Virus record (IMG/VR): IMGVR_UViG_3300042197_003558 | Span: 1 to 26,480 of that record | DNA: 26,480 nt | DNA from: a virus | Strand: one strand, 5' to 3' | In this document: positions 3,573 to 25,044 of the stretch, one piece after another | How the letters are laid out: each line of letters begins with the position of its first letter | How positions within the stretch are numbered: the first letter of the stretch is position 1 | Made by a program: the position numbers and the translations under genes | The notes under the pieces: generated by a model | Seen by the model: only the letters and a program-made list of their open reading frames with translations | Told to the model about the DNA's origin: nothing | The model's database searches: none

Positions 3573-3589
3573 CATTTATACTATTTACC
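3573..3589 (-). promoter_or_regulatory. Late-promoter-like motifs TATAAATG and GGTAAATA
   Basis: Two minus-strand octamers lie upstream of the beta-helix-like gene: TATAAATG (3580-3573, 7 of 8 matches to the T4 late consensus) and GGTAAATA (3589-3582). The second touches the TAG stop of the 1227-residue gene. Either would give a short leader (about 7 or 16 nt). Confidence 0.5.
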
Positions 3590-6500
3590 TAGGTTTCTGA
3601 TATTGTGTCAGGAGTTCCTGGGATATTAAGTTGAGGATTGTTACTTGCAACGTCAGTGCCAACTCTAGGAATAGCACTTTGGGTAGTAGTGATTCTACCT
3701 TCAATGCTTTCTTGAAGTGTATCAAAGACTTGTACTTGTTTTCCTGGAGTTTCATAGTAACCAGCAAATTTGCGTCCATCTTTATAGAAGACTGCTCCAT
3801 AATATGCTCTACCCTCAATATATCCTGTTTGTTTGAGTCCAACTAAATCTGTAACTTGAATGATTTGATCTGCTGGAGCTTCAATTGGATCACGAACAAT
3901 TTCAAAAATAGGAGAGAACTCTACGTTTACACCCGTATCTGAGGGCATGGTAATTGAAGGATATGCGGTGAATCCGCTCCCTTTATTCAGCACTGTTATG
4001 GAATTAATTCTCCCAAATGAATCGCAACTATAATCAAGTTCAACTCCATTATTAGGAGTAACAACAATTTGATCTACTCCACAATTATAATTGATCCCTG
4101 AGTTTTTTACAACAACTTCTTTTAATCTTATAATTACAGGATAGTTATTAGCATCTGGAGCAGGAGTTAAATATCCATTTCCAGGATCTTCAACAATCAC
4201 ATCAACAACAACTCCCTTTCCACTTCTTTTTCTTCTACATGGTGGTGGAATCATTACAGCAGATACTCCCATTGGATTTTGAGTCCAAGATTTTGCCGAA
4301 ACTGAAGTGGAAGATAATGGTATTACAGTAGTAATTTCTGCAAATCCAACGACAGGATTTTGTTGAAATCCTGTTCCAGGAATACTAATATTAGACAATT
4401 GAAGTTCAACAACTTTAAATCCCTTTGTGGCAGTAAAAGTTGTTTTTTTTCTGCCCTCGAAAACTGTTGATCGTCCTACAATTATACCATCGATCTTAAT
4501 AATCAATTCATCATCAGCTTGAGATTCTAAAGTATACTGCCCATCAACAGGAAAATTGACACTACTCCATCTAAATAACCAACTTTTCCCTTGTATTTCC
4601 TCATTTGGAGTTGCGTTCACATTTTGAAGAGCTGGAGAAATGAAATCATCTCTATAATTTACAATTGCAGTAGGACCTTCATAGACAACATTAGCGGCAG
4701 TAGCAGATTGTCTTATATCTTCATACACTACGGGTGCTGGAAGTAACTTAACAAAACTCATTTCGAATTTTATCGCATCATCTACTGTTATTGAAACCTC
4801 ATAATCACCCTCTTCACTTAATTGAACATTACTCCATTCGATATTTGTTATGCTATTATCTTTAACATTTTCTGGAAAAACCCCACTTCTTTTTAAGAAA
4901 TCTTTGCTTTCCTGAGAATTCTTGGCAAACTCTTCTAAATCAATCTCACCGGACGAGACTGGAATTAATTTAATATTTGCCCCATTAATACTTTGAAGAC
5001 TATTGAAAACTACCCTCCCATTTGCTTTATTTTTTATTTCAATCGCAAGTCCTGTTGGACCAACATCTTGTTTATATTCAACATATATTTTGTAAATACC
5101 CGCTTTAAAATTATAAGGGAGATTTCTAACTCCATCATATGCTGTTTCAATTTTAAGAGGATTTTGAGGTGGTATTTGTCTCTCTACAACTTTAGGTCTA
5201 AACAACCAATCTTTTGTGCTAAAGATTTTTTGATTTATATTTGTTATACTTGTAATATTAATTGGTTGATTATAAACTTCTACTTTTATTTGATGCTGTC
5301 CTTTTCTAATAAATTTTTTAATTATGCTTGGGTTTTCTTTTTTAAATCCATCAAGATCTTTAATTTTTTCCTCATCAATAAATATTGCTCCTTTATTATC
5401 TGCAGTTCCTTTAAATCCATAATATCCGTCATATGGAATATCAACAGTCCATGTATTGTTGTATGTTATGCCTGCATTGTCACTACCAGGAGTATCTAAA
5501 GGTTGAACAGGTGAAATTGCATAGCGATTTGTAAATTTACTCCAAGAATTTCTCCTCGTAAATATCACAGGATACCAAGATTCGGAAGATCCAGGAAATC
5601 TGGTAGTCCATATTGGACTTGGTGGACAAGGACCTTCTTGAGTCGGGAGTGGTTCTTTAGGAACTGGAGGCGGAGGTGATTGAATTATAACAGCAATTGC
5701 CATTGGATTTTGATTCCATGATGCGCCAATAGTAGGATTTCCACTTGAAGGTTTACTTGCAATTGTCGCATTAAAAACTACTGGATTAGTTTTAAAAGTG
5801 CTTGTCGAATTTCCTGGAATATTGTATATTTCCATTTCAACTGTCTTATTTCCACCTGTTGTTTCAAATGTAAAGGTTCTTACCCCATCAAATACTTTAG
5901 CTTTTCCAATTTCTTTTCCATCTATTCTTACAATTACATAATCATCAGCCTGTGCTTTTAATTCATAGACACCCGCAAATGGAAAATTTACGTTTCTCCA
6001 ACGTAAATTCCAAGTTTTATCCATATTGTTTGCTCGATAATCTTCATCGCTAGTGAATTTTGGAGTTAAAAATGGACCTAAAGTTCCATCCGCATAACTA
6101 CTCAGAGCAGGACCTTCATAAGTTACATTCACATTTCTTCCTGTTTTTGTTGAAGATAGCCAATCAGCAGTATCAAAGATTTTTACAATCTCATTAACAT
6201 TAATAGGTTTGTTGAGAAGTTCTAATTTAACAGTATGATTTCCTTTTTTATAGGGTTTTTTTATGGATGTAGGACTATCTGCAAAAGATCCTAAATTTGT
6301 AATTAGATCCCCATCAACATATACCTTCCCGACATTATCACAACATCCAAGAAAGGTATAATCTCCATCATAAGGGAATTCTACAATGTACTCAAAATTA
6401 AATGTTACATTTGCATAATCCGATCCAGGAACATCTGAAGGAGGAACTGGAGAAATTGCATAAGACTCAATAAATGATCCCCAAGCAGAAGATCCATCCG

Positions 6501-7272
6501 GTTTTCTGACTGGACAATTGCTAATATCATACTTGGAAGAAATTGTATCTCCTCTCGAAGAACTGATAAGAATTGGTTTATTCTTTCTTGTTGTAAAAAA
6601 TGGATTATTTTCAGTCAGTAAGAATTTTTGATACTTTTCAATTTCTTTCCTAATAGGATCTTCGTAAGTATTTGTGTACTGATTTGGATCCCACGGTCCT
6701 ATTTCTTCTCCATTAGGACCCCAAACAGTCCCATAACCTTCTTCTGTATCATCACATATCTCATACTCTTCAAAATCTTCTTCATCAGTAAAAACTTCAA
6801 ACTCATCAATAGTAGTTCCAAGAACTGCAACAAGTTTCCCTCCACTACCATAGTTGCAATCATCTTTAATACTGACTAGTGGTTCATATTTATATCCAAA
6901 TCCACCCGATACTAAGTCTACTCCAAGAAGAGCTCCATCAGATCCTATGATTGGATTAGCAGATGCACCAAGTCCTCCACCACCATAAAATTGAATTTTT
7001 GGTGGACCGCATTCTTTAAATGTTTGTATTCCAGCACACGAATCAATGTCTGTTGTTAAGACTTGATCTGCAGTTAACCTATTGACTTCGTTAATTTTTA
7101 AAAATTTTAATATAGATCTATTTACTGTAATTATAAATGTTGTTCCTGGATTTTTTTGTGCATAAGCATTAGCCTCACAAATAGAAACACTGTCAATAAA
7201 TCCCAACAAAGGATCTACATATCCTATTCTGATTTGATCTCTATTTAATGGGGCATTGATATTGCTTGACAT
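3589..7272 (-). CDS. Giant virion structural protein with duplicated PA14-like repeats (1227 aa)
   Basis: This is the largest gene in the window. Two repeat types each occur twice. Type A (about residues 266-360 and 582-675) has YAISPV, PGSD, PYDG and a DN-G-VYVDG core. Type B (about 428-530 and 903-1007) has the landmarks NFP..G.Y.L..QADD, I.IDG, NPVV and SW.QNPM. Both resemble PA14-like or carbohydrate-binding beta-barrels, in which the G-Y-x-F...DD...V-x-x-DG pattern is typical. The N-terminus (GGFGYKYEPLVSI) and C-terminus (GNGYLTP, GSGFTAYPSITM) carry Gly-rich turns common in cyanophage structural proteins. It sits between gp5 and the fibre genes, so it is probably part of the baseplate, perhaps a short fibre or a glycan-binding sheath. 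The precise role is unknown. Confidence 0.8.
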   Translation of the reverse strand: MSSNINAPLNRDQIRIGYVDPLLGFIDSVSICEANAYAQKNPGTTFIITVNRSILKFLKINEVNRLTADQVLTTDIDSCAGIQTFKECGPPKIQFYGGGGLGASANPIIGSDGALLGVDLVSGGFGYKYEPLVSIKDDCNYGSGGKLVAVLGTTIDEFEVFTDEEDFEEYEICDDTEEGYGTVWGPNGEEIGPWDPNQYTNTYEDPIRKEIEKYQKFLLTENNPFFTTRKNKPILISSSRGDTISSKYDISNCPVRKPDGSSAWGSFIESYAISPVPPSDVPGSDYANVTFNFEYIVEFPYDGDYTFLGCCDNVGKVYVDGDLITNLGSFADSPTSIKKPYKKGNHTVKLELLNKPINVNEIVKIFDTADWLSSTKTGRNVNVTYEGPALSSYADGTLGPFLTPKFTSDEDYRANNMDKTWNLRWRNVNFPFAGVYELKAQADDYVIVRIDGKEIGKAKVFDGVRTFTFETTGGNKTVEMEIYNIPGNSTSTFKTNPVVFNATIASKPSSGNPTIGASWNQNPMAIAVIIQSPPPPVPKEPLPTQEGPCPPSPIWTTRFPGSSESWYPVIFTRRNSWSKFTNRYAISPVQPLDTPGSDNAGITYNNTWTVDIPYDGYYGFKGTADNKGAIFIDEEKIKDLDGFKKENPSIIKKFIRKGQHQIKVEVYNQPINITSITNINQKIFSTKDWLFRPKVVERQIPPQNPLKIETAYDGVRNLPYNFKAGIYKIYVEYKQDVGPTGLAIEIKNKANGRVVFNSLQSINGANIKLIPVSSGEIDLEEFAKNSQESKDFLKRSGVFPENVKDNSITNIEWSNVQLSEEGDYEVSITVDDAIKFEMSFVKLLPAPVVYEDIRQSATAANVVYEGPTAIVNYRDDFISPALQNVNATPNEEIQGKSWLFRWSSVNFPVDGQYTLESQADDELIIKIDGIIVGRSTVFEGRKKTTFTATKGFKVVELQLSNISIPGTGFQQNPVVGFAEITTVIPLSSTSVSAKSWTQNPMGVSAVMIPPPCRRKRSGKGVVVDVIVEDPGNGYLTPAPDANNYPVIIRLKEVVVKNSGINYNCGVDQIVVTPNNGVELDYSCDSFGRINSITVLNKGSGFTAYPSITMPSDTGVNVEFSPIFEIVRDPIEAPADQIIQVTDLVGLKQTGYIEGRAYYGAVFYKDGRKFAGYYETPGKQVQVFDTLQESIEGRITTTQSAIPRVGTDVASNNPQLNIPGTPDTISET

Positions 7273-10407: not shown

Positions 10408-10415
10408 TATTTACC
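10408..10415 (-). promoter_or_regulatory. Late-promoter-like octamer GGTAAATA
   Basis: The minus-strand GGTAAATA contains the TAA stop of the 978-residue gene and lies 13 bases before the ATG of the gp27-like gene. It is a weaker match to the T4 late consensus than its neighbours, but the same octamer recurs at 3582-3589 in the same relation to a stop codon. Confidence 0.4.
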
Positions 10416-13347
10416 CGGGTAAGCGATCAAGAATTTCAAATGGATCACTCCCACCACTAGATGATGAGACTTGCATCATTAATCCTTGACTATTCATACT
10501 TTGAGATTGATAATCAATTGGTTGATTGTCCTCAATTAAAATTTCTTGAGATGCTGCACTGTCATATGAAGCATACGCTTGAATTACTCTCAGAACACTT
10601 GAAATATTTGATGCTGAATTTAAAGATTCAAGAAATCCTGGTAAGGCAGCTCTGACTGTTTCTGTAGTGTCACTGTCAAAAACAAACTCTCTTCCACGTT
10701 CTCCAAGCATTGCATAAGTAACTCCATCAATCAATCCTCCCTTTGCATATGCAACGTGAACATGATCTCCATGTCCAGCAGGATCGGTTCTACCCGTTAT
10801 GAGTTCAACAGGTTTTAACCCTTTCATTCTATTGAATTCTGCAATAACATTTAAAATAGGTCCTTGTTCGTGAGTATATGCGCCAATATCGAGTGCCCTA
10901 CCAGAATAGTGATAAGAACCAGGGGCATGTCTTCCACGAACTCCTCCATGCTCAGGGTGTTCTGTAACAGCTTGAAATTGTTGTGGACTTTTTAATCTGG
11001 ATTTAATAAATCTACCCAATTCTCCAGCAATTTTACTTCCTTCGCTTCCATATCCAGATCCTAGTGCTATTCCAGGTCCTCCTGCTCCACCACTAAAACT
11101 AGCAAGAGCATCCGCTGCAAATTGATATCTACGAGGATAATTTGGAACACCTGCTCTCTCCATCTCACGTTCAAAAATTTCTACTGCTTTTTTATATGAT
11201 GTTACACCTTTAATACGATTATATGTTCCATAATCTTTCATCTCTTTAATCATCCACTCAACTTGAGTTTCAAGTGCCCAAGGATCTTTTCCAGAATTCT
11301 TTGCCCATGCACTTAATGATGCCCATCTCTCAGTTTCTGTCCATTGCATAATACCCCTACCAGGACCTCCACCAAGTTGTCTAGACTTTGGATTTACTCC
11401 AGATTCTTGCATCAAGTTACCAATGATTCCTGCTGCCGCCTCTGGAGTAAATCCTTCTTTATCAACCAAATATCTAAAGACTTTTTCTGCATTTGTATTG
11501 CCAGTTAAAGTTGGAGATCCTGTTGGTTCACCTTCCGCCCCAGGTCCTTCTCCTGGTTCCTTTCCTCTATCAATTTCTCTTAAAGTCAGTTGCATTTGTA
11601 AATTTTTAAGGACATCATCCGCTCTTTTTGAAATGCTTTCCTCAACAGATTTTGCAATTACGTTTGTAAGATCTTCACCGTTCATAAACATCTCTGAATT
11701 CACTTCTCCGCCACCAGCAAAGGCACCAAATGTTCTCATAGATTCCGTATTAAAAGTAGTATTCAACCAAGAATTCAATCCTGAACCAATGTTAATATAA
11801 TCTATGTTAGATGGTTTTTCTCCAACCAATAATTTTGATACTATTCCAAATAAAGGTCCAAAGAAAGGTATTTTTGAAGTAGAATCATAGGTTGTTTCAA
11901 TATATCCAAGAGGATTTACCGTATCTGGACGTGTTGATTCTGGAAAAACTTTTTCTATTTTTTGTGATCCACCAATATCTTTTCCTGGAGATATTTTTGT
12001 TGGTTGTATCGTAATTGATCTTTTTGTTGTTGGTTTTTTAATTCTTCTTTTAGCACCACCTTGAAACTTCCCTCCTCTGGTTATACCACCACCTGCCATC
12101 TTGCTCACCATTTCTTTTTGAGCACCCTGATTACCATAGATATTTCCAAATGATCCCTTTTCTTTAAATGCAAGTCCAAGAGTGAGCATATTAAATGCTC
12201 TTCTCAAATCTTCACGAATTCTTGCATCAAATTTTGCTAAATTAGTTGCTTGAGTTTTCTTATCGTTTTCGTTTAAAAATGGATAGCGAATTAATTCTAT
12301 CGCATATCTAAATGGGGATCCTACAACATCAAGTAAAAATCCAGCAGTTTGGAATATACCAAAAAGAGGTCTAATCATATTAAGGATGATTCCCCTACCT
12401 ATTTTTGTAAGAGGATTCTTGTCTTTTCTATAATCGTTTTCAAGATTCTGAATGGGTTTTATTGCAAATTTTCTTAATTGAAATGCACCTTCACCCAAAG
12501 CAGATGCGAGTAGTCCAGCGCCAGAAACAATTGCAGCAGCAGCTCCTGCGCCCACTCCACCTGCCTGAGCAGCTGCCCCTCCTGCCTGACTTGCAGCACT
12601 AGTTGCTGCCTGTTGTGCCCCCCTCTTAAGCACTCTATCACTGACAATATCCATTCCAACATCAAAAACTCCACCTTTGCCTTGACTTCCAAGAACTACA
12701 GCAGTTGTAATAGCAGCTTCTATAACCTTTCCTACTGCACCATTGAAAGTATCAAAAACTTTAACAAAATTTTCTCCACCAAAACTTTTTAATTGCTTCC
12801 TAGTAAAATCATATGCTTTATAACCCCAGTCTATAAAGGTAACTAATCCATCTAATAGTTTTCCACTAAAATCAATAAAGAAATCAACTGCTGGAGCTAG
12901 AATCTTCAGGAAGTTTGCAATTTTTGGAAGATGATCTATAAGTCTAAACGCAATGAATCCTAAAATCATATTGACTATGAATTTTTTGATTCCATCTAAA
13001 AATCCAAGTTTAGGTAAAGATGGTATGTTAGGTAATTTTTCGTCTGCTTTTGGTTTATCCTCTAATTTTTCTTCCCTCTTCTTTCTCTTAGATTGTTCTG
13101 CTAGTTTATCTTCTTCTCTTTGTTTTTTTACATCTTCAACATACTTTCTATTGATAAGATTTTCAATCTTAATAACTTGTTTTTTTATTATCATCATTTG
13201 AGATGAACGATTTCTCGTTGGATTCAAAATTTGAGAATCTGTCTTAAATGAATAGTTACTAGATGTTGATATCTTTTTGGCAGTCTCCTTTGAAACAAGA
13301 GCACTAGATTTAGAAGATGGTAATAATTTTCCAGCGTTAATTGCCAT
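10411..13347 (-). CDS. Tape-measure-like tail protein with lysozyme and M15-like peptidase domains (978 aa)
   Basis: Residues about 55-110 are a charged coiled coil. Residues about 118-345 have long hydrophobic helices (FIVNMILGFIAFRLIDHL; an Ala/Gly-rich stretch about 245-285) as in tape-measure proteins. Residues about 616-750 match phage tail lysozyme: PEAAAGIIGNLMQESGVNP with probable catalytic Glu648, then GRGIMQWT. Residues about 790-870 look like an M15/LAS-type metallopeptidase: SYHYSGRALDIG (His813, Asp820) and GHGDHVHV (His862, His864) as metal ligands. The C-terminus (GLIDGVTYAMLGERGREFVF) is tape-measure-like. It would be ejected through the tube and cut both glycan and peptide in peptidoglycan. 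An excellent ribosome binding site (GAGGAGGT) overlaps the end of the upstream gene. The protein may be a hub-bound lysozyme rather than a true ruler. Confidence 0.75.
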   Translation of the reverse strand: MAINAGKLLPSSKSSALVSKETAKKISTSSNYSFKTDSQILNPTRNRSSQMMIIKKQVIKIENLINRKYVEDVKKQREEDKLAEQSKRKKREEKLEDKPKADEKLPNIPSLPKLGFLDGIKKFIVNMILGFIAFRLIDHLPKIANFLKILAPAVDFFIDFSGKLLDGLVTFIDWGYKAYDFTRKQLKSFGGENFVKVFDTFNGAVGKVIEAAITTAVVLGSQGKGGVFDVGMDIVSDRVLKRGAQQAATSAASQAGGAAAQAGGVGAGAAAAIVSGAGLLASALGEGAFQLRKFAIKPIQNLENDYRKDKNPLTKIGRGIILNMIRPLFGIFQTAGFLLDVVGSPFRYAIELIRYPFLNENDKKTQATNLAKFDARIREDLRRAFNMLTLGLAFKEKGSFGNIYGNQGAQKEMVSKMAGGGITRGGKFQGGAKRRIKKPTTKRSITIQPTKISPGKDIGGSQKIEKVFPESTRPDTVNPLGYIETTYDSTSKIPFFGPLFGIVSKLLVGEKPSNIDYINIGSGLNSWLNTTFNTESMRTFGAFAGGGEVNSEMFMNGEDLTNVIAKSVEESISKRADDVLKNLQMQLTLREIDRGKEPGEGPGAEGEPTGSPTLTGNTNAEKVFRYLVDKEGFTPEAAAGIIGNLMQESGVNPKSRQLGGGPGRGIMQWTETERWASLSAWAKNSGKDPWALETQVEWMIKEMKDYGTYNRIKGVTSYKKAVEIFEREMERAGVPNYPRRYQFAADALASFSGGAGGPGIALGSGYGSEGSKIAGELGRFIKSRLKSPQQFQAVTEHPEHGGVRGRHAPGSYHYSGRALDIGAYTHEQGPILNVIAEFNRMKGLKPVELITGRTDPAGHGDHVHVAYAKGGLIDGVTYAMLGERGREFVFDSDTTETVRAALPGFLESLNSASNISSVLRVIQAYASYDSAASQEILIEDNQPIDYQSQSMNSQGLMMQVSSSSGGSDPFEILDRLPG

Positions 13348-13352
13348 TTATA

Positions 13353-15788
13353 TTACCTCCTCAACCCAAGAGTTGCTTCTTTATTTCTTGTCCCTGCTGG
13401 ATGAGAAGCAGAAATCTTAGGACTAGTTGATCTAGTTGATTGATTAATACCAGATCCCATAAGATCTGCTTTTGATCTTTTTGTTACCTTAACTGGTTTT
13501 TTTGGTAAAGGTTGAACACCCTTTGATAATGGTTTTGCTTTAATTTGTGCAGCGTTTGCTTTTGCAGCAAGTTGCAGTTCTTGTCCCCTATAATCTTTTC
13601 CTAAATTTGAAACTCCCCTTGCATTTTGTGCTCTCATAATATTAGAGGTAGAATATTGTGCCATTCCTGCTTGTTGTCTTATCTGATTATCTCTCTTAAC
13701 TCTTTTTTCTTTTGCTGCTAAATCATTTCTGGCTTGTTTTGGATCAACTCCAAGTTTTTTAAGTTGCTTATCAATATTGGCATCAGTCATTCCAATTTTC
13801 TTATAATAAGATAGAGAATCAATAGCAGACATTCTCATTCCTTTCTTTCTTAAATTATCTTCTCTCGCTTTAGATCCACCTGGATTGAAGAAGTCAGAAA
13901 TATTCTCTAAAAATCCTTTTTGTCTTGCTCCAGGTCTTTGATAAACAGGTTTTCCGCCCTTGAATGATAGATGTCCCACAAACGCTCTGCCATCAGGACC
14001 TGTCATTATTTGAGTTTTGGGTAAGGATCTTCTATCAATAGTGCCTGCACCCATCAGTTCACCACCAGATCCTTGATATTTTGATCTATTTGATATATCA
14101 CCAGAAAGATTGATACCTTGAGTAGACATTAACCTTGATTGATGTGCTGCAAGAGCATCATTGTAATTAGCATAGAATTTATTATCAGAAGAGGATCTGT
14201 ATCTCTTTTCTTTCCATGTATTTCCCTTACCACTTCTTGTCACGTCTACCATACCAGCAAACGTTCCTTTTAATCTATTTCTAACTTGGGATGCATTTGC
14301 TTTAGATGAAAGTTGAAGTTCTTGCCCTCTATATCCAGCGCCCATGCCACCTACACCACGATTTTTATAATAATTTCTCTCTTGAGCACGATGAGATGTG
14401 CTAATAATATCTTCTACACTAGGTCTTAACCCTTTTTCTGGTGGTTTCTCTTTGAGATCTGGACTATTTCCAATCTGTCCACCACCTTTAGCAAAAGTTG
14501 TTCCTTTAACAATTTTGGGTTTATTAGTTCCTCCACCAGCAGCATTCATTGCTTCGAGAACATCTACGCCATATTTCTGTACAGCACCACGAGACATTAC
14601 AAATTCACCATCAGACAACATTGCAGGAATTTTATCTACTCCTTTTTGTCCATTTATCAATCCAGCAGTTTGTTCTCTAAATCGCTCAAATCCAAGCATT
14701 TCGCTCAGGGATCCGATCATATTATTAGATCCCATTTTGAATAGAGATCCTAGATCAGCAAGTCCACCACCAGCAAATTTAGGTGTAGTTGGTTTTTCTT
14801 TAGAATCATTACCTATTCCACCAAAACTTTCAAGTCCTCCACTGAGAGCCATTGTAGCTCCTACAGTGGTTGCTGCCTCTAATCCTGCAACAGCAAGTTT
14901 TCCATATTTTCCACCAAGAAATCCTGCAACTTTACCTGCTTTTCCAACTCCTGCCTTTGCTAATAAAATAGCAGTAGCTCTAGCAAGTGCTGCTCCACCT
15001 TTAATGACAATAGAAATCAATCCTCTAGCAAACTTCCCAAAGGAAGTTCCGAACATAATGTAGAGACTTAATAGTTTAGCCCAATTATCTCCTAAGAATC
15101 TAAAAACAGACTTTAATTTGTCTTGATTTTTTGGATCAGCTAACCATTCTAAAAGTTTGTAAACCACCCTCCCCAAAAACATCTTCATAAAAAAGTCAAT
15201 AATTGAAGATAAAATGGTTTTAACAGGAGCAATTACTTTAAATACAGCTTTTTTGACTAGCGAAAATCCTTTCTCTAGTTTAGATTCCTCACCTTCCCTC
15301 TTTGCCCTTTCTCTCTCTAATCTTTTCTTTTCTGAACTTTTCTTTTCTAATTGAATACTTGAATTCAGAATCTTTATAATGTTTCCAAGAGATTCTGAAA
15401 TACTTTTTAAATATGAAGTTGAACCAGCAGCAATAGGAGATAATTCTCCTCCAGGAAGATATGACTGTGTTTGAGTTCCTGGAAGTAATTTTTCACTTTT
15501 AATTTTTTTGGGTACAATTTTTACTTTTCCAATACCAAAAGATTGTGTATTTATTTTTTTATTTTTAACTTTAAATCTACCAGATTTTCCTCTTATTCTT
15601 TTCCTCTCATTGGCAAGAAGAGCCAGTTCTTCATCTGGAAGTTTATTTTTTCCAAAAGAATTTTTTACTATTGCTTCTTTTAAAAGAATTAAGTACGTAT
15701 CATAATCAAGGTCAAATACATCTTCTAGCCCTAATAGCCTTAGAATTCTTGAATCTATCGTCTCTTTTACATTAGAAGAATTGGGCAT
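13353..15788 (-). CDS. Tail tape-measure-like protein (811 aa)
   Basis: After a basic N-terminal region comes a coiled coil (about residues 150-180, Glu/Lys/Arg-rich) and strongly hydrophobic helices (about 188-330, including GKFARGLISIVIKGGAALA). The Gly-rich segment GGGLADLGSLFKMG follows, and then SDGEFVMSRGAVQKYGVDVL, a signature I associate with cyanophage tape-measure proteins. The C-terminal third is basic and contains two copies of YRGQELQL..KANA.Q. The open frame reaches a TTG at 15821, but the ATG at 15788 is preferred; either way it overlaps the preceding small ORF. Placed directly after gp26 and the small ORF, it is in the usual position of a tape measure. Which of this and the 978-residue protein sets tail length is not clear. 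Confidence 0.75.
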   Translation of the reverse strand: MPNSSNVKETIDSRILRLLGLEDVFDLDYDTYLILLKEAIVKNSFGKNKLPDEELALLANERKRIRGKSGRFKVKNKKINTQSFGIGKVKIVPKKIKSEKLLPGTQTQSYLPGGELSPIAAGSTSYLKSISESLGNIIKILNSSIQLEKKSSEKKRLERERAKREGEESKLEKGFSLVKKAVFKVIAPVKTILSSIIDFFMKMFLGRVVYKLLEWLADPKNQDKLKSVFRFLGDNWAKLLSLYIMFGTSFGKFARGLISIVIKGGAALARATAILLAKAGVGKAGKVAGFLGGKYGKLAVAGLEAATTVGATMALSGGLESFGGIGNDSKEKPTTPKFAGGGLADLGSLFKMGSNNMIGSLSEMLGFERFREQTAGLINGQKGVDKIPAMLSDGEFVMSRGAVQKYGVDVLEAMNAAGGGTNKPKIVKGTTFAKGGGQIGNSPDLKEKPPEKGLRPSVEDIISTSHRAQERNYYKNRGVGGMGAGYRGQELQLSSKANASQVRNRLKGTFAGMVDVTRSGKGNTWKEKRYRSSSDNKFYANYNDALAAHQSRLMSTQGINLSGDISNRSKYQGSGGELMGAGTIDRRSLPKTQIMTGPDGRAFVGHLSFKGGKPVYQRPGARQKGFLENISDFFNPGGSKAREDNLRKKGMRMSAIDSLSYYKKIGMTDANIDKQLKKLGVDPKQARNDLAAKEKRVKRDNQIRQQAGMAQYSTSNIMRAQNARGVSNLGKDYRGQELQLAAKANAAQIKAKPLSKGVQPLPKKPVKVTKRSKADLMGSGINQSTRSTSPKISASHPAGTRNKEATLGLRR

Positions 15789-15948
15789 TAGATGCTTGCT
15801 GTTTAGTTTGTTCTTCCTCAATATGTTGCTTTAATAATTCAACATAGATATCCCTTTCCCAAGGAATCATATTTTCAAGTTCTGTCAAACTATATTTATG
15901 ATACTGCATTAATGAAAAATTAAGACGAAAATAGTTTTCAAGATCCAT
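15772..15948 (-). CDS. Small ORF after gp26, probable frameshift extension / gp51-like chaperone part (58 codons)
   Basis: The frame starts at ATG 15948, begins MDLENYFRLNFSLMQYHKYS and contains MIPWERDIYVELLKQHIEEE. It ends at TAA 15772 after overlapping the tape-measure gene by 17 bases. The 'PWER.IY..LL...IEEE' pattern is typical of the C-terminal part of tail-assembly chaperones (lambda T-like) and of the small protein found here in T4-like cyanophages. No Shine-Dalgarno sequence precedes the ATG. The frame is open upstream, through CGC ATA GCC CTA GTC CAC, to the slippery site in gp26 at 15966-15972, so it may be translated mainly as a gp26 fusion of about 302 residues. Re-initiation after the gp26 stop is the alternative. 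Confidence 0.8.
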   Translation of the reverse strand: MDLENYFRLNFSLMQYHKYSLTELENMIPWERDIYVELLKQHIEEEQTKQQASNAQFF

Positions 15949-15959
15949 GTGGACTAGGG

Positions 15960-16679
15960 CTATGCGAAAAAACTTGCTAGCCCCTCTAGAACAACCTCAC
16001 TTTCTACATTAGTGTCGGGATTTTTTACCTTGATTTTGTGAGATAATTTGGGCATTGTTTCAAAGAAACTTTCAATTTGTTTGAATTGATTTGAATTCAT
16101 CTGATCCAAGAAATCACTAAGTTCTTTCTTGGTTACATCAGAAGCAACCCAAACCTCCTCTTCTGTATAAATCTTACTAATACATGAAGCAATCAAATCA
16201 AAAGACTGCTCCATTGCATTTTCATTTGTAAAATCAAAATTTGATTTAATGAATTGATCTAAAGATGGATACTTCATTTCCATCATAATATTTTTATCTA
16301 CACGAATTTGATTCGTGTGCTCCTCATTTTTTTGTACTTGAATGGAGTCGATATCAATTTTAACAAGCACTTGTGTTACTTCATCATCTGGACAGATAAT
16401 ATTGACTTCTATTTGCTCTCCAACTGACTTGCCACGAATGTTCAGAAACAAATATTCAATATCAAATGTGGGCAAAATTTCTACCTTAATATTTTTTGTT
16501 AAGATACAATTTTTGATGACTGTCTTAATCGCTGTTGTGATTTGCTTCGTGTCTTCACTCTCCAAAGCAATCACAAGAAGTTTTTCTTCTTTAACTAAGA
16601 ATGGTCTGAATTGAACTGTTTCTCCAGTAGAAGGCAATTCCAACTCATAAGTTGGCGTAGCAATTTTTGGTAATGGCAT
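15960..16679 (-). CDS. 26: Baseplate hub assembly protein gp26 (239 aa)
   Basis: The N-terminus MPLPKIATPTYELELPSTG and the following RPFLVKEEKLLVIALESED, plus FDIEYLFLNIRGKSVGEQI, identify cyanophage gp26 (T4_baseplate family; T4 gp26 is 208 residues). In T4, gp26 works with gp51 and gp28 in assembling the hub and the tape measure, although it is minor in or absent from the virion; this matches the role of lambda gpG. It lies directly upstream of the small ORF and the tape-measure-like gene. It ends SFFA*, with the heptamer T TTT TTC two codons before the stop. A late-type promoter (16708-16715) precedes it, without a clear ribosome binding site. Confidence 0.85.
   Translation of the reverse strand: MPLPKIATPTYELELPSTGETVQFRPFLVKEEKLLVIALESEDTKQITTAIKTVIKNCILTKNIKVEILPTFDIEYLFLNIRGKSVGEQIEVNIICPDDEVTQVLVKIDIDSIQVQKNEEHTNQIRVDKNIMMEMKYPSLDQFIKSNFDFTNENAMEQSFDLIASCISKIYTEEEVWVASDVTKKELSDFLDQMNSNQFKQIESFFETMPKLSHKIKVKNPDTNVESEVVLEGLASFFA
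15966..15972 (-). other. Putative -1 ribosomal frameshift site T TTT TTC in gp26
   Basis: On the minus strand the gp26 codons read AGT TTT TTC GCA TAG, so the heptamer T TTT TTC is in the X XXY YYZ register. A one-base backward slip gives TTC then CGC ATA GCC CTA GTC CAC ATG GAT, joining the small ORF 15772-15948 without a stop. The arrangement mirrors the lambda G/GT chaperone. No convincing stimulatory hairpin was seen just downstream by eye. Confidence 0.65.
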
Positions 16680-16706: not shown

Positions 16707-17549
16707 TTATTTATTAAGTGTAGACGAACCTCCAAAGTTTGACTTTACATCAAAAGAGTTTCCTGAAGAAGATGATGATGGGAATGTTACCCCACCAGTC
16801 GTAGTGTATTCTCCATAATTAAGTCCAATACTCTTTCCTCCCCATGCCGCTTGATTAATAGCGGCAAGTTGACTTGGAGTAAGAGAACTAAATTTAGAAG
16901 TTTCTGATGGTGAAGAGCTCTTTAGAGTCCCACCAAGTTGAGAAACATAGTAACGAATATATGAGAAAGAAATTGTAATCTTTAGTAAATTAGCAATATC
17001 ATACGAAATTGGCATCGATGTAATACTTATTGGAAAAACATTAACAAACTTATAAGTTAAAAGATCAATATAGGTATCTCTTTCAAACTTTGTGATTTCC
17101 AACCCACCATAATACTCTTTTGGATATTTCATTTGATAATAAAAGTATGGCGAAGTTATGCTATTATCTTCTCCCGCAATACTTTCATTCGTAGTGTATT
17201 TAACCCATGATTCAAAAAATTTGATAACATTATATCCATCATTTTGAACATAAAAAGAAAGATCTATTCTATCATCATAAATTCTGCGATGAGCATGTCT
17301 CTCTGTTACGCCAACAAAATCTCCATTAATTTCTGACGTTGCTAAATTAGAACCAGGAAGAATCGCATCAGAACAAGCTAATTGTAAATTGTCTTGAGAC
17401 TCGGCATTAAAACTAACTCCATTTTTTCCAAGATATGTTATAAAATCTCCAGGAGGAGGAGAAATAATAACTTCATAATGACTTGTTAATGCAGGTTTCA
17501 GAACTCCTTTTTTTATTTGATCTACTGTTCTTCTGGTTGGCGCAGCCAT
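16707..17549 (-). CDS. 54: Baseplate tail-tube initiator gp54 (280 aa)
   Basis: It begins MAAPTRRTVDQIKKGVLKPA and carries the pattern SDAILPGSNLATSEINGDFVG, VTERHAHRRIYDDRIDLSFYV, GLEITKFERD, VNVFPISITSMPISYD and ISFSYIRYYV. That pattern is characteristic of the gp19/gp54 tail-tube family in cyanophages. gp54 tops the baseplate and starts polymerisation of the gp19 tube; T4 gp54 is 320 residues. The C-terminal 70 residues are Ser/Gly-rich and likely flexible. It is transcribed leftward from the divergent intergenic region it shares with gp4. The main alternative is a tail-tube protein gp19 paralogue. Confidence 0.75.
   Translation of the reverse strand: MAAPTRRTVDQIKKGVLKPALTSHYEVIISPPPGDFITYLGKNGVSFNAESQDNLQLACSDAILPGSNLATSEINGDFVGVTERHAHRRIYDDRIDLSFYVQNDGYNVIKFFESWVKYTTNESIAGEDNSITSPYFYYQMKYPKEYYGGLEITKFERDTYIDLLTYKFVNVFPISITSMPISYDIANLLKITISFSYIRYYVSQLGGTLKSSSPSETSKFSSLTPSQLAAINQAAWGGKSIGLNYGEYTTTGGVTFPSSSSSGNSFDVKSNFGGSSTLNK
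16708..16715 (-). promoter_or_regulatory. Late promoter AATAAATA for gp26
   Basis: The minus-strand AATAAATA overlaps the stop codon of gp54 (TAA, 16709-16707). With T4 spacing, transcription begins near 16702, giving a 23-nt leader to gp26. Confidence 0.6.
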
Positions 17550-18061: not shown

Positions 18062-18712
18062 ATGAATGATTATTATACATATGCATATTTAAGAGAAGAT
18101 AGAAATCCATATTACATTGGAAAAGGAAAAGGAAATAGATTGTATTATAAGTATGGAAAGAACTGTAAACCACCAAGAGATAGAAGTAGGATAATTAAAC
18201 TCAAACAAAACTTAACCGAAGAAGAAGCATTCAAGCACGAAATCTATATGATTGCTGTTTTTGGCAAAAAATGTGATGGAACTGGTATTTTGATGAATAT
18301 TGCTGATGGTGGTAATGCTCCACCAGTATACTATGGAGAAAATCATCCGGCAAAAAGATCAGAAGTTAAAGCAAAAATTGGTGCTGCAAATAAAAAAAGT
18401 TTAAAGGGAAGAAAAATTCCAGAAGATGTGAAAAGGAAGTTATCAAATACTTGGAAAGAAAAATTAAAAAATAATCCAAGACCATTATCTTATTATGAAA
18501 AAAATTTAAAAAAGATGGCAGAAAGAAATAAGACAGATAAAGAGAAGCATAAAAAGCATAGCGAATTTATGAAGAACCAATCTTATGCATCTAAACCAGT
18601 AGAATATAATAATAAAACATATAAATCTATGACAGAAGCAATAAAAGAAACAGGACTTTCCAGATATCTTATCCTTAAGCAAGGTGGAAAAATTATTAAA
18701 GGTATCAAATAA
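18062..18712 (+). CDS. GIY-YIG homing endonuclease, free-standing (216 aa)
   Basis: The N-terminal GIY-YIG nuclease domain has YTYAYL (residues 5-10), YYIGKG (17-22), Arg26 and catalytic Glu60 (in HEIYMI). DNA-binding modules follow: a NUMOD3-like stretch (about 94-130, with GENHPAKRSEVKAKI and GRKIPEDVKRKL) and an IENR1/NUMOD1-like helix-turn-helix (about 180-210, KTYKSMTEAIKETGLSR). Such selfish genes cut an allele lacking them and are copied by repair. It is wedged between gp4 and a conserved gene with a TAATG overlap to the latter. Its Lys/Asn-rich, AT-rich coding style fits recent transfer. The nearest analogues are the T4 seg genes. Confidence 0.85.
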   Translation: MNDYYTYAYLREDRNPYYIGKGKGNRLYYKYGKNCKPPRDRSRIIKLKQNLTEEEAFKHEIYMIAVFGKKCDGTGILMNIADGGNAPPVYYGENHPAKRSEVKAKIGAANKKSLKGRKIPEDVKRKLSNTWKEKLKNNPRPLSYYEKNLKKMAERNKTDKEKHKKHSEFMKNQSYASKPVEYNNKTYKSMTEAIKETGLSRYLILKQGGKIIKGIK

Positions 18713-24804: not shown

Positions 24805-25044
24805 TTAAGTTTTTTGTAAATGATTTGCGATTTTTAAAATATGTTTTGTGAATAAAGATACATCCATATCACTTTTCATATAGTTGCATTTAGTACAGCA
24901 AGATACACAGTTATCAATTTTATATCCAACATTACTATCTATTCTATCAATCCCATTATAAGGAACTGGAACTCCTACATATTTTCCTTTACCTCTATGA
25001 GGTTGTTTTAATTCTGGTTCTGAACCACAATAATAACATAGCAA
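24805..25044 (-). CDS. HNH endonuclease, small free-standing (79 aa)
   Basis: The HNH/zinc pattern is present: LCYYCGSEP at the start (Cys pair), YNGIDRID and GYKIDNCVSCCTKCNYMKSDM (second Cys pair and the N of HNH). This is the GIDR-type HNH common in cyanobacteria and their phages. The only possible start is TTG (25044), with no ribosome binding site, so expression may depend on coupling to the gene ending at 25049. It sits between a conserved small gene and PhoH and is probably a homing-type invader. A small trimmed copy cannot be excluded, as the protein ends soon after the domain. Confidence 0.75.
   Translation of the reverse strand: MLCYYCGSEPELKQPHRGKGKYVGVPVPYNGIDRIDSNVGYKIDNCVSCCTKCNYMKSDMDVSLFTKHILKIANHLQKT

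Follow-up and report, generated by a model that had tools for sequence, protein, structure and literature searches.

Do gp26 and the small open reading frame (ORF) that follows it in the DNA of this marine T4-like cyanophage constitute two genes, or a single chaperone gene that is decoded in two ways? Both lie on the minus strand of the window, i.e. the whole stretch of 26,480 nucleotides analysed here (IMG/VR record IMGVR_UViG_3300042197_003558). gp26 (15960..16679) encodes 239 residues that match PF12322 T4_baseplate (E 5.6e-75) and phrog_150 (E 1.2e-77), and the small ORF, as given in the ORF list, encodes 58 residues from an ATG (15772..15948). By profile match, the 58-residue ORF corresponds to phrog_634, the baseplate hub assembly catalyst gp51 (E 4.7e-26); a Pfam scan of this gp51 domain returned chance-level matches only. 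The ORF also matches columns 242-280 of phrog_150, the profile of the gp26 family, indicating that some members of this family hold both parts in one chain.

The two reading frames meet at a candidate site for -1 frameshifting. The gp26 gene ends with CTA GCA AGT TTT TTC GCA TAG, in which T TTT TTC (15966..15972) stands in the X XXY YYZ register, the zero-frame codons TTT and TTC being followed by GCA and then by TAG; direct reading confirms what an earlier note on this DNA had stated in this respect. From the CGC at 15966, the -1 frame reads CGC ATA GCC CTA GTC CAC ATG GAT... and stays open for 64 codons before a stop (15772..15966), giving a gp51-like extension of 64 residues (RIALVHMDLENYF...QFF) within which the 58-residue ORF lies. 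The predicted fusion has 238 + 64 = 302 residues, in agreement with the 64 further codons and the approximately 302-residue product proposed in the note, and its junction in the window phage reads ...SFFR then IALVHMDLENYFR, with SFFRIALVH as the junction peptide. The comparisons described below support the frameshift reading put forward in the note, to which we add the identification of the small ORF as a gp51 homologue, and on this sequence evidence we consider it very probable that gp26 and the small ORF are one chaperone gene decoded in two ways via a -1 slip on T TTT TTC. The note had also pointed to the missing ribosome binding site of the small ORF; it is true that there is no Shine-Dalgarno-like stretch upstream of the ORF (15948..15772), but because gp26 itself and several neighbouring genes of the window likewise have none, the absence is uninformative, and we rejected it as evidence for frameshifting.

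In the mechanism that we infer, most ribosomes would end at the TAG and yield gp26, the putative short form of 239 residues (the counterpart of TAC-N and lambda gpG), and a minority would slip by -1 on T TTT TTC and yield a gp26-gp51 fusion of about 302 residues, the putative long form, whose extension would be the counterpart of TAC-C and lambda T. In most relatives, a hairpin 6-10 nt downstream would aid the slip. The analogy with lambda gpG/gpGT suggests that the tape-measure protein would be coated by the gp26 part and that subunits of the tail tube or of the hub would be brought in by the gp51 part, after which both would leave. The locus sits between a gene for a tail tube-type protein of 280 residues (16707..17549; PF23849 Phage_TTP_2, E 5e-16; phrog_45 tail tube, E 2e-26) and a tape-measure-like gene with weak profile matches (13353..15788; phrog_23013, E 2.7e-5; phrog_25241, E 0.004), both on the minus strand. 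The product of the latter, 811 residues when counted from the ATG at 15788 (the ORF list starts the gene at the TTG at 15821), contains hydrophobic segments and is likely the client of the gp26/gp51 chaperone. Large tape-measure-like proteins are encoded twice in succession in the window (10411-13347 and 13353-15821), and a tail lysozyme domain (PF18013, E 1.5e-30) is present in the first of these, of 978 residues.

Across the compared sequences, the -1 phase pattern is real and deeply conserved. Searches of IMG/VR with six different gp26 queries, together with annotated phages, yielded 288 homologous junctions. In 264 of the 288, T TTT TTN precedes the stop by 2, 3 or 4 codons; the gp51 domain is detectable at 284 junctions and lies in the -1 frame at all 284, and every heptamer-bearing locus with a detectable gp51 domain (262/262) has an open -1 frame. 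Once the proteins are clustered at 70% identity, the heptamer is present in 42 of 49 clusters, the -1 phase is found without the heptamer in six, and one (T2) has neither. The pattern spans cyanophages and phages of Methylophilales, Sinorhizobium, Stenotrophomonas, Vibrio, Pseudomonas and Acinetobacter. Because in-frame slippery heptamers occur elsewhere in gp26 at only 0.0033 per codon, the heptamer at the junction is not due to chance. Moreover, the base ahead of the two slippery codons is T in 264/264 cases, compared with approximately 61% T-ending serine codons elsewhere in gp26, and this constant T is a constraint beyond a protein-level explanation. The earlier note had suggested looking in relatives for a conserved heptamer and for an open -1 frame ahead of the ATG; these counts bear out the former, and no relative has a -1 stop upstream of the ATG.

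That the small ORF is an independent gp51 gene, translated from its own ATG, perhaps by termination-reinitiation, with an incidental slippery run, would fit three observations: gp51 has an annotation of its own in public records, an ATG stands at the domain in the window and in many relatives, and a TAATG stop/start overlap occurs in some Ackermannviridae. We consider this very unlikely, because conservation at the amino acid level starts right past the heptamer and ahead of the ATG: the -1 codon periodicity begins there directly, and over the first 18 nt the second codon position of the -1 frame (0.61 bits) is far more conserved than the third (1.38 bits). Within 60 nt, stops in the -1 frame occur in 0/135 dereplicated loci, compared with 135/135 for frame 0 and 122/135 for frame +1. 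In 86 loci, the conserved gp51 domain is preceded by no ATG between it and the slip site, and many of these also have no GTG or TTG, so that a shift, or an odd start, is needed to make the domain. Furthermore, the phase is always -1 with the heptamer kept, and the hairpin described below is located over the ATG. Altogether, the 58-residue ORF is probably not a gene of its own. Since the ATG is retained in many relatives, some separate translation of gp51 may nevertheless occur, and frameshifting to the fusion could be accompanied by a free gp51 peptide in the ATG-bearing lineages, which is a version of our explanation and does not exclude it. We regard such a combination as rather unlikely: the window and many close relatives retain the ATG at the domain, but the position is not kept as an ATG across the family, and the genes of T4-type phages encode no form other than the short one and the fused one. 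In S-RSM4 and Melnitz-2 (L082 and L084), the public gp51 start is annotated inside the conserved domain, probably because no proper start exists.

The junctions without T TTT TTN are those of the Ackermannviridae, the rearranged T2 and one IMG/VR locus, L147 (IMGVR_UViG_3300049043_000112, 1501-2391), where a T run with one base fewer (TCT TTT TGG) puts gp26 and gp51 into a single continuous frame. Homopolymers are prone to error, and L147 with its one T fewer might be taken to indicate that the run of six Ts is a sequencing artefact and that the true gene is a single in-frame fusion. The likelihood of this is close to negligible, given that hundreds of independent contigs, as well as the genomes of cultured phages, share this run length and the -1 phase. 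L147 stands apart from them and is more likely to be the erroneous or derived case, through an indel error or as a lineage whose only product is the long form.

Downstream of the heptamer, relatives contain a conserved RNA hairpin, which was absent from the earlier note. In close relatives, a 5-bp stem with an AUAU-type loop is formed by the bases 10-23 nt past the heptamer (GGUCC-AUAU-GGACC, GGUUC-AUAU-GAACC, GAUCC-AUAU-GGAUC). Among 74 relatives, 85.4% of the cells in the stem alignment are paired versus 78.7 +- 0.9 in shuffles, and double-sided changes are found in 44 cells versus 11.9 +- 4.2 in shuffles, a control that retains shared ancestry; none of the slid versions of the stem approaches the actual stem in this covariation test. 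Folding energies of 134 dereplicated loci show, relative to dinucleotide shuffles, a single sharp minimum of -3.53 +- 0.32 kcal/mol in the 32-nt segment beginning 6 nt past the heptamer, and relative to synonymous codon shuffles in the -1 frame the excess is -3.33 +- 0.27 at 8 nt and approximately 0 from 26 nt on. Because the excess is seen against both dinucleotide and synonymous shuffles, the shape of the RNA itself appears to be selected. Different stems occupy roughly equivalent positions in other clades, for example in MED4-213, SH-Ab 15599 and Astolliot, where the z-scores lie between -3.7 and -4.2. A single stem position common to all lineages was rejected, as stems vary by clade, most starting approximately 6-12 nt past the heptamer. 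The candidate hairpin of the window (AGTCC-ACAT-GGATC; 15942..15955, minus strand), which is proposed from the covariation and the folding-energy peak in relatives, begins 10 nt past the heptamer and surrounds the ATG of the 58-residue ORF; it is weak, with four pairs only compared with five in most close relatives, and is not significant against dinucleotide shuffles. We tentatively propose, at somewhat less than even confidence, that the hairpin over the gp51 ATG sets the ratio of short to long form and suppresses separate translation of gp51, and that this signal gave way to T7-like sites in the Ackermannviridae and to gene duplication in the T4 group.

In the Ackermannviridae (Salmonella phage Marshall, Serratia phage MAM1, Vibrio VP-1 and K351; loci L089, L090, L093, L094 and L272-L289), the gp51 domain is kept in the -1 frame, with A ATT TTC, G GTT TTC, C GTT TTT or A CTT TTC in place of T TTT TTN. 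G GTT TTC is the site of T7 gene 10, which A ATT TTC and others of these sites also resemble. Because the potential starts are mixed, with the TAATG overlap in some of these phages and ATT or ATC instead of ATG in others, -1 shifting is the simpler reading of their sequences, although not an established one. The records of Marshall and MAM1 carry no annotation for the gp51 domain.

The T4 group contains the same domains in a different arrangement. The gp51 protein of T2, of 249 residues, has a PF12322 domain at residues 1-201 (E 4.3e-55) and, after it, a C-terminal homologue of the small ORF (hhalign E 2.5e-4 against the small-ORF profile), and aligns with phrog_150 over columns 13-280 of 282 (E 7e-88). 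T2 gp26 consists of the first, PF12322, domain only, and the two genes are divergently oriented. As gp51 of T2/T4 is thus a gp26-like protein with the C-terminal domain in frame, T4 gp26 and gp51 correspond to the two predicted frameshift products, gp26 to the short form and gp51 to the fusion. By homology, T4 has as two genes what the cyanophage would make from one by slipping; the domain families are common to both, whereas in T2/T4 the forms come from two divergent genes and a frameshift is not needed. T4 gp26 and gp51 have been listed as hub assembly chaperones, with gp51 absent from the particle (PMC3004832).

Frameshifted chaperones encoded upstream of the tape-measure gene are classical, the example being lambda G/GT, and a 2016 review still excepted T4 (PMC5009743). 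The locus described here resembles lambda gpG/gpGT in that a single -1 slip close to the end of its first gene would give two forms, short and long, and in the flanking tube and tape-measure genes (PMC5009743), but differs in the T TTT TTN site, the PF12322 domain and the contractile T4-like tail, and no significant sequence similarity of gp26/gp51 to lambda gpG/gpGT was found. The analogy with lambda drawn in the earlier note therefore holds in gene order and in the logic of short and long forms, and weakly in the fold. With the natural in-frame fusion L147 standing in for the fusion of the window, structure prediction gave a mean pLDDT of 85.9 overall, with a well-predicted gp26 part and an all-helical gp51 domain. 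Compared with solved structures, the three highest probabilities were obtained with HK97 gp13 2OB9 (0.51 and 0.44) and 3FGX (0.47), all with E > 1; 2OB9 and 3FGX are described as tail assembly chaperones (PMC9603447), and these matches are a hint of a chaperone-like fold in the model of gp26. A sequence search of solved structures returned no relatives of the gp26 part or the gp51 part.

Our finding is ordinary in kind and, as far as sequences go, well supported by comparison. Vladimirov, Gautam and Davidson reportedly described in 2022 frameshifting in several T4-like groups and treated genes 26 and 51 in T4. That study (Virology 2022;566:9-15, pmid 34826709) identified the tail assembly chaperones of T4-like phages and, as summarized in two later papers, comprises poly-T frameshift signals in T4-like TAC-N genes (PMC12846349) and, in some T4-like phages, a short gene together with a fused long gene (PMC10885494). 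By these citing papers' summaries, the genes are the same as those studied here, so the frameshift mechanism in T4-like chaperones is already known, having been published in 2022, and the statement in the earlier note that no frameshift had been described for T4-type gp26 has been overtaken. Possibly new details may be the conserved hairpin, the 86 loci without an ATG, the T7-like sites of the Ackermannviridae and the breadth of the survey. A conserved -1 frame and a poly-T motif ending the short chaperone gene have likewise been described in the Vandenendeviridae/Andersonviridae (phage Adele), which differ in the motif, GTTTTT, and in being other phage families (PMC12846349).

Decoding of one gene in two ways would account for the finding that gp26 and gp51 of cyanophages always adjoin in the -1 phase, and would correct a widespread annotation that treats gp51 as a small gene in its own right, frequently starting it within the domain, or that leaves it out altogether. 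It would also connect gp26 and gp51, the T4 hub assembly proteins that have long been puzzling, with a chaperone system of the lambda type, and the hairpin would offer a direct target for measuring the ratio of short to long form in phages that are among the most abundant in the ocean. Finally, we note by eye three other features of the window: a GIY-YIG type homing endonuclease-like ORF among the structural genes (18062-18712, plus strand), a small ORF that resembles HNH endonucleases and contains CxxC motifs (24805-25044, minus strand), and a protein of 1227 residues with apparent repeated PA14-like segments (3589-7272, minus strand).
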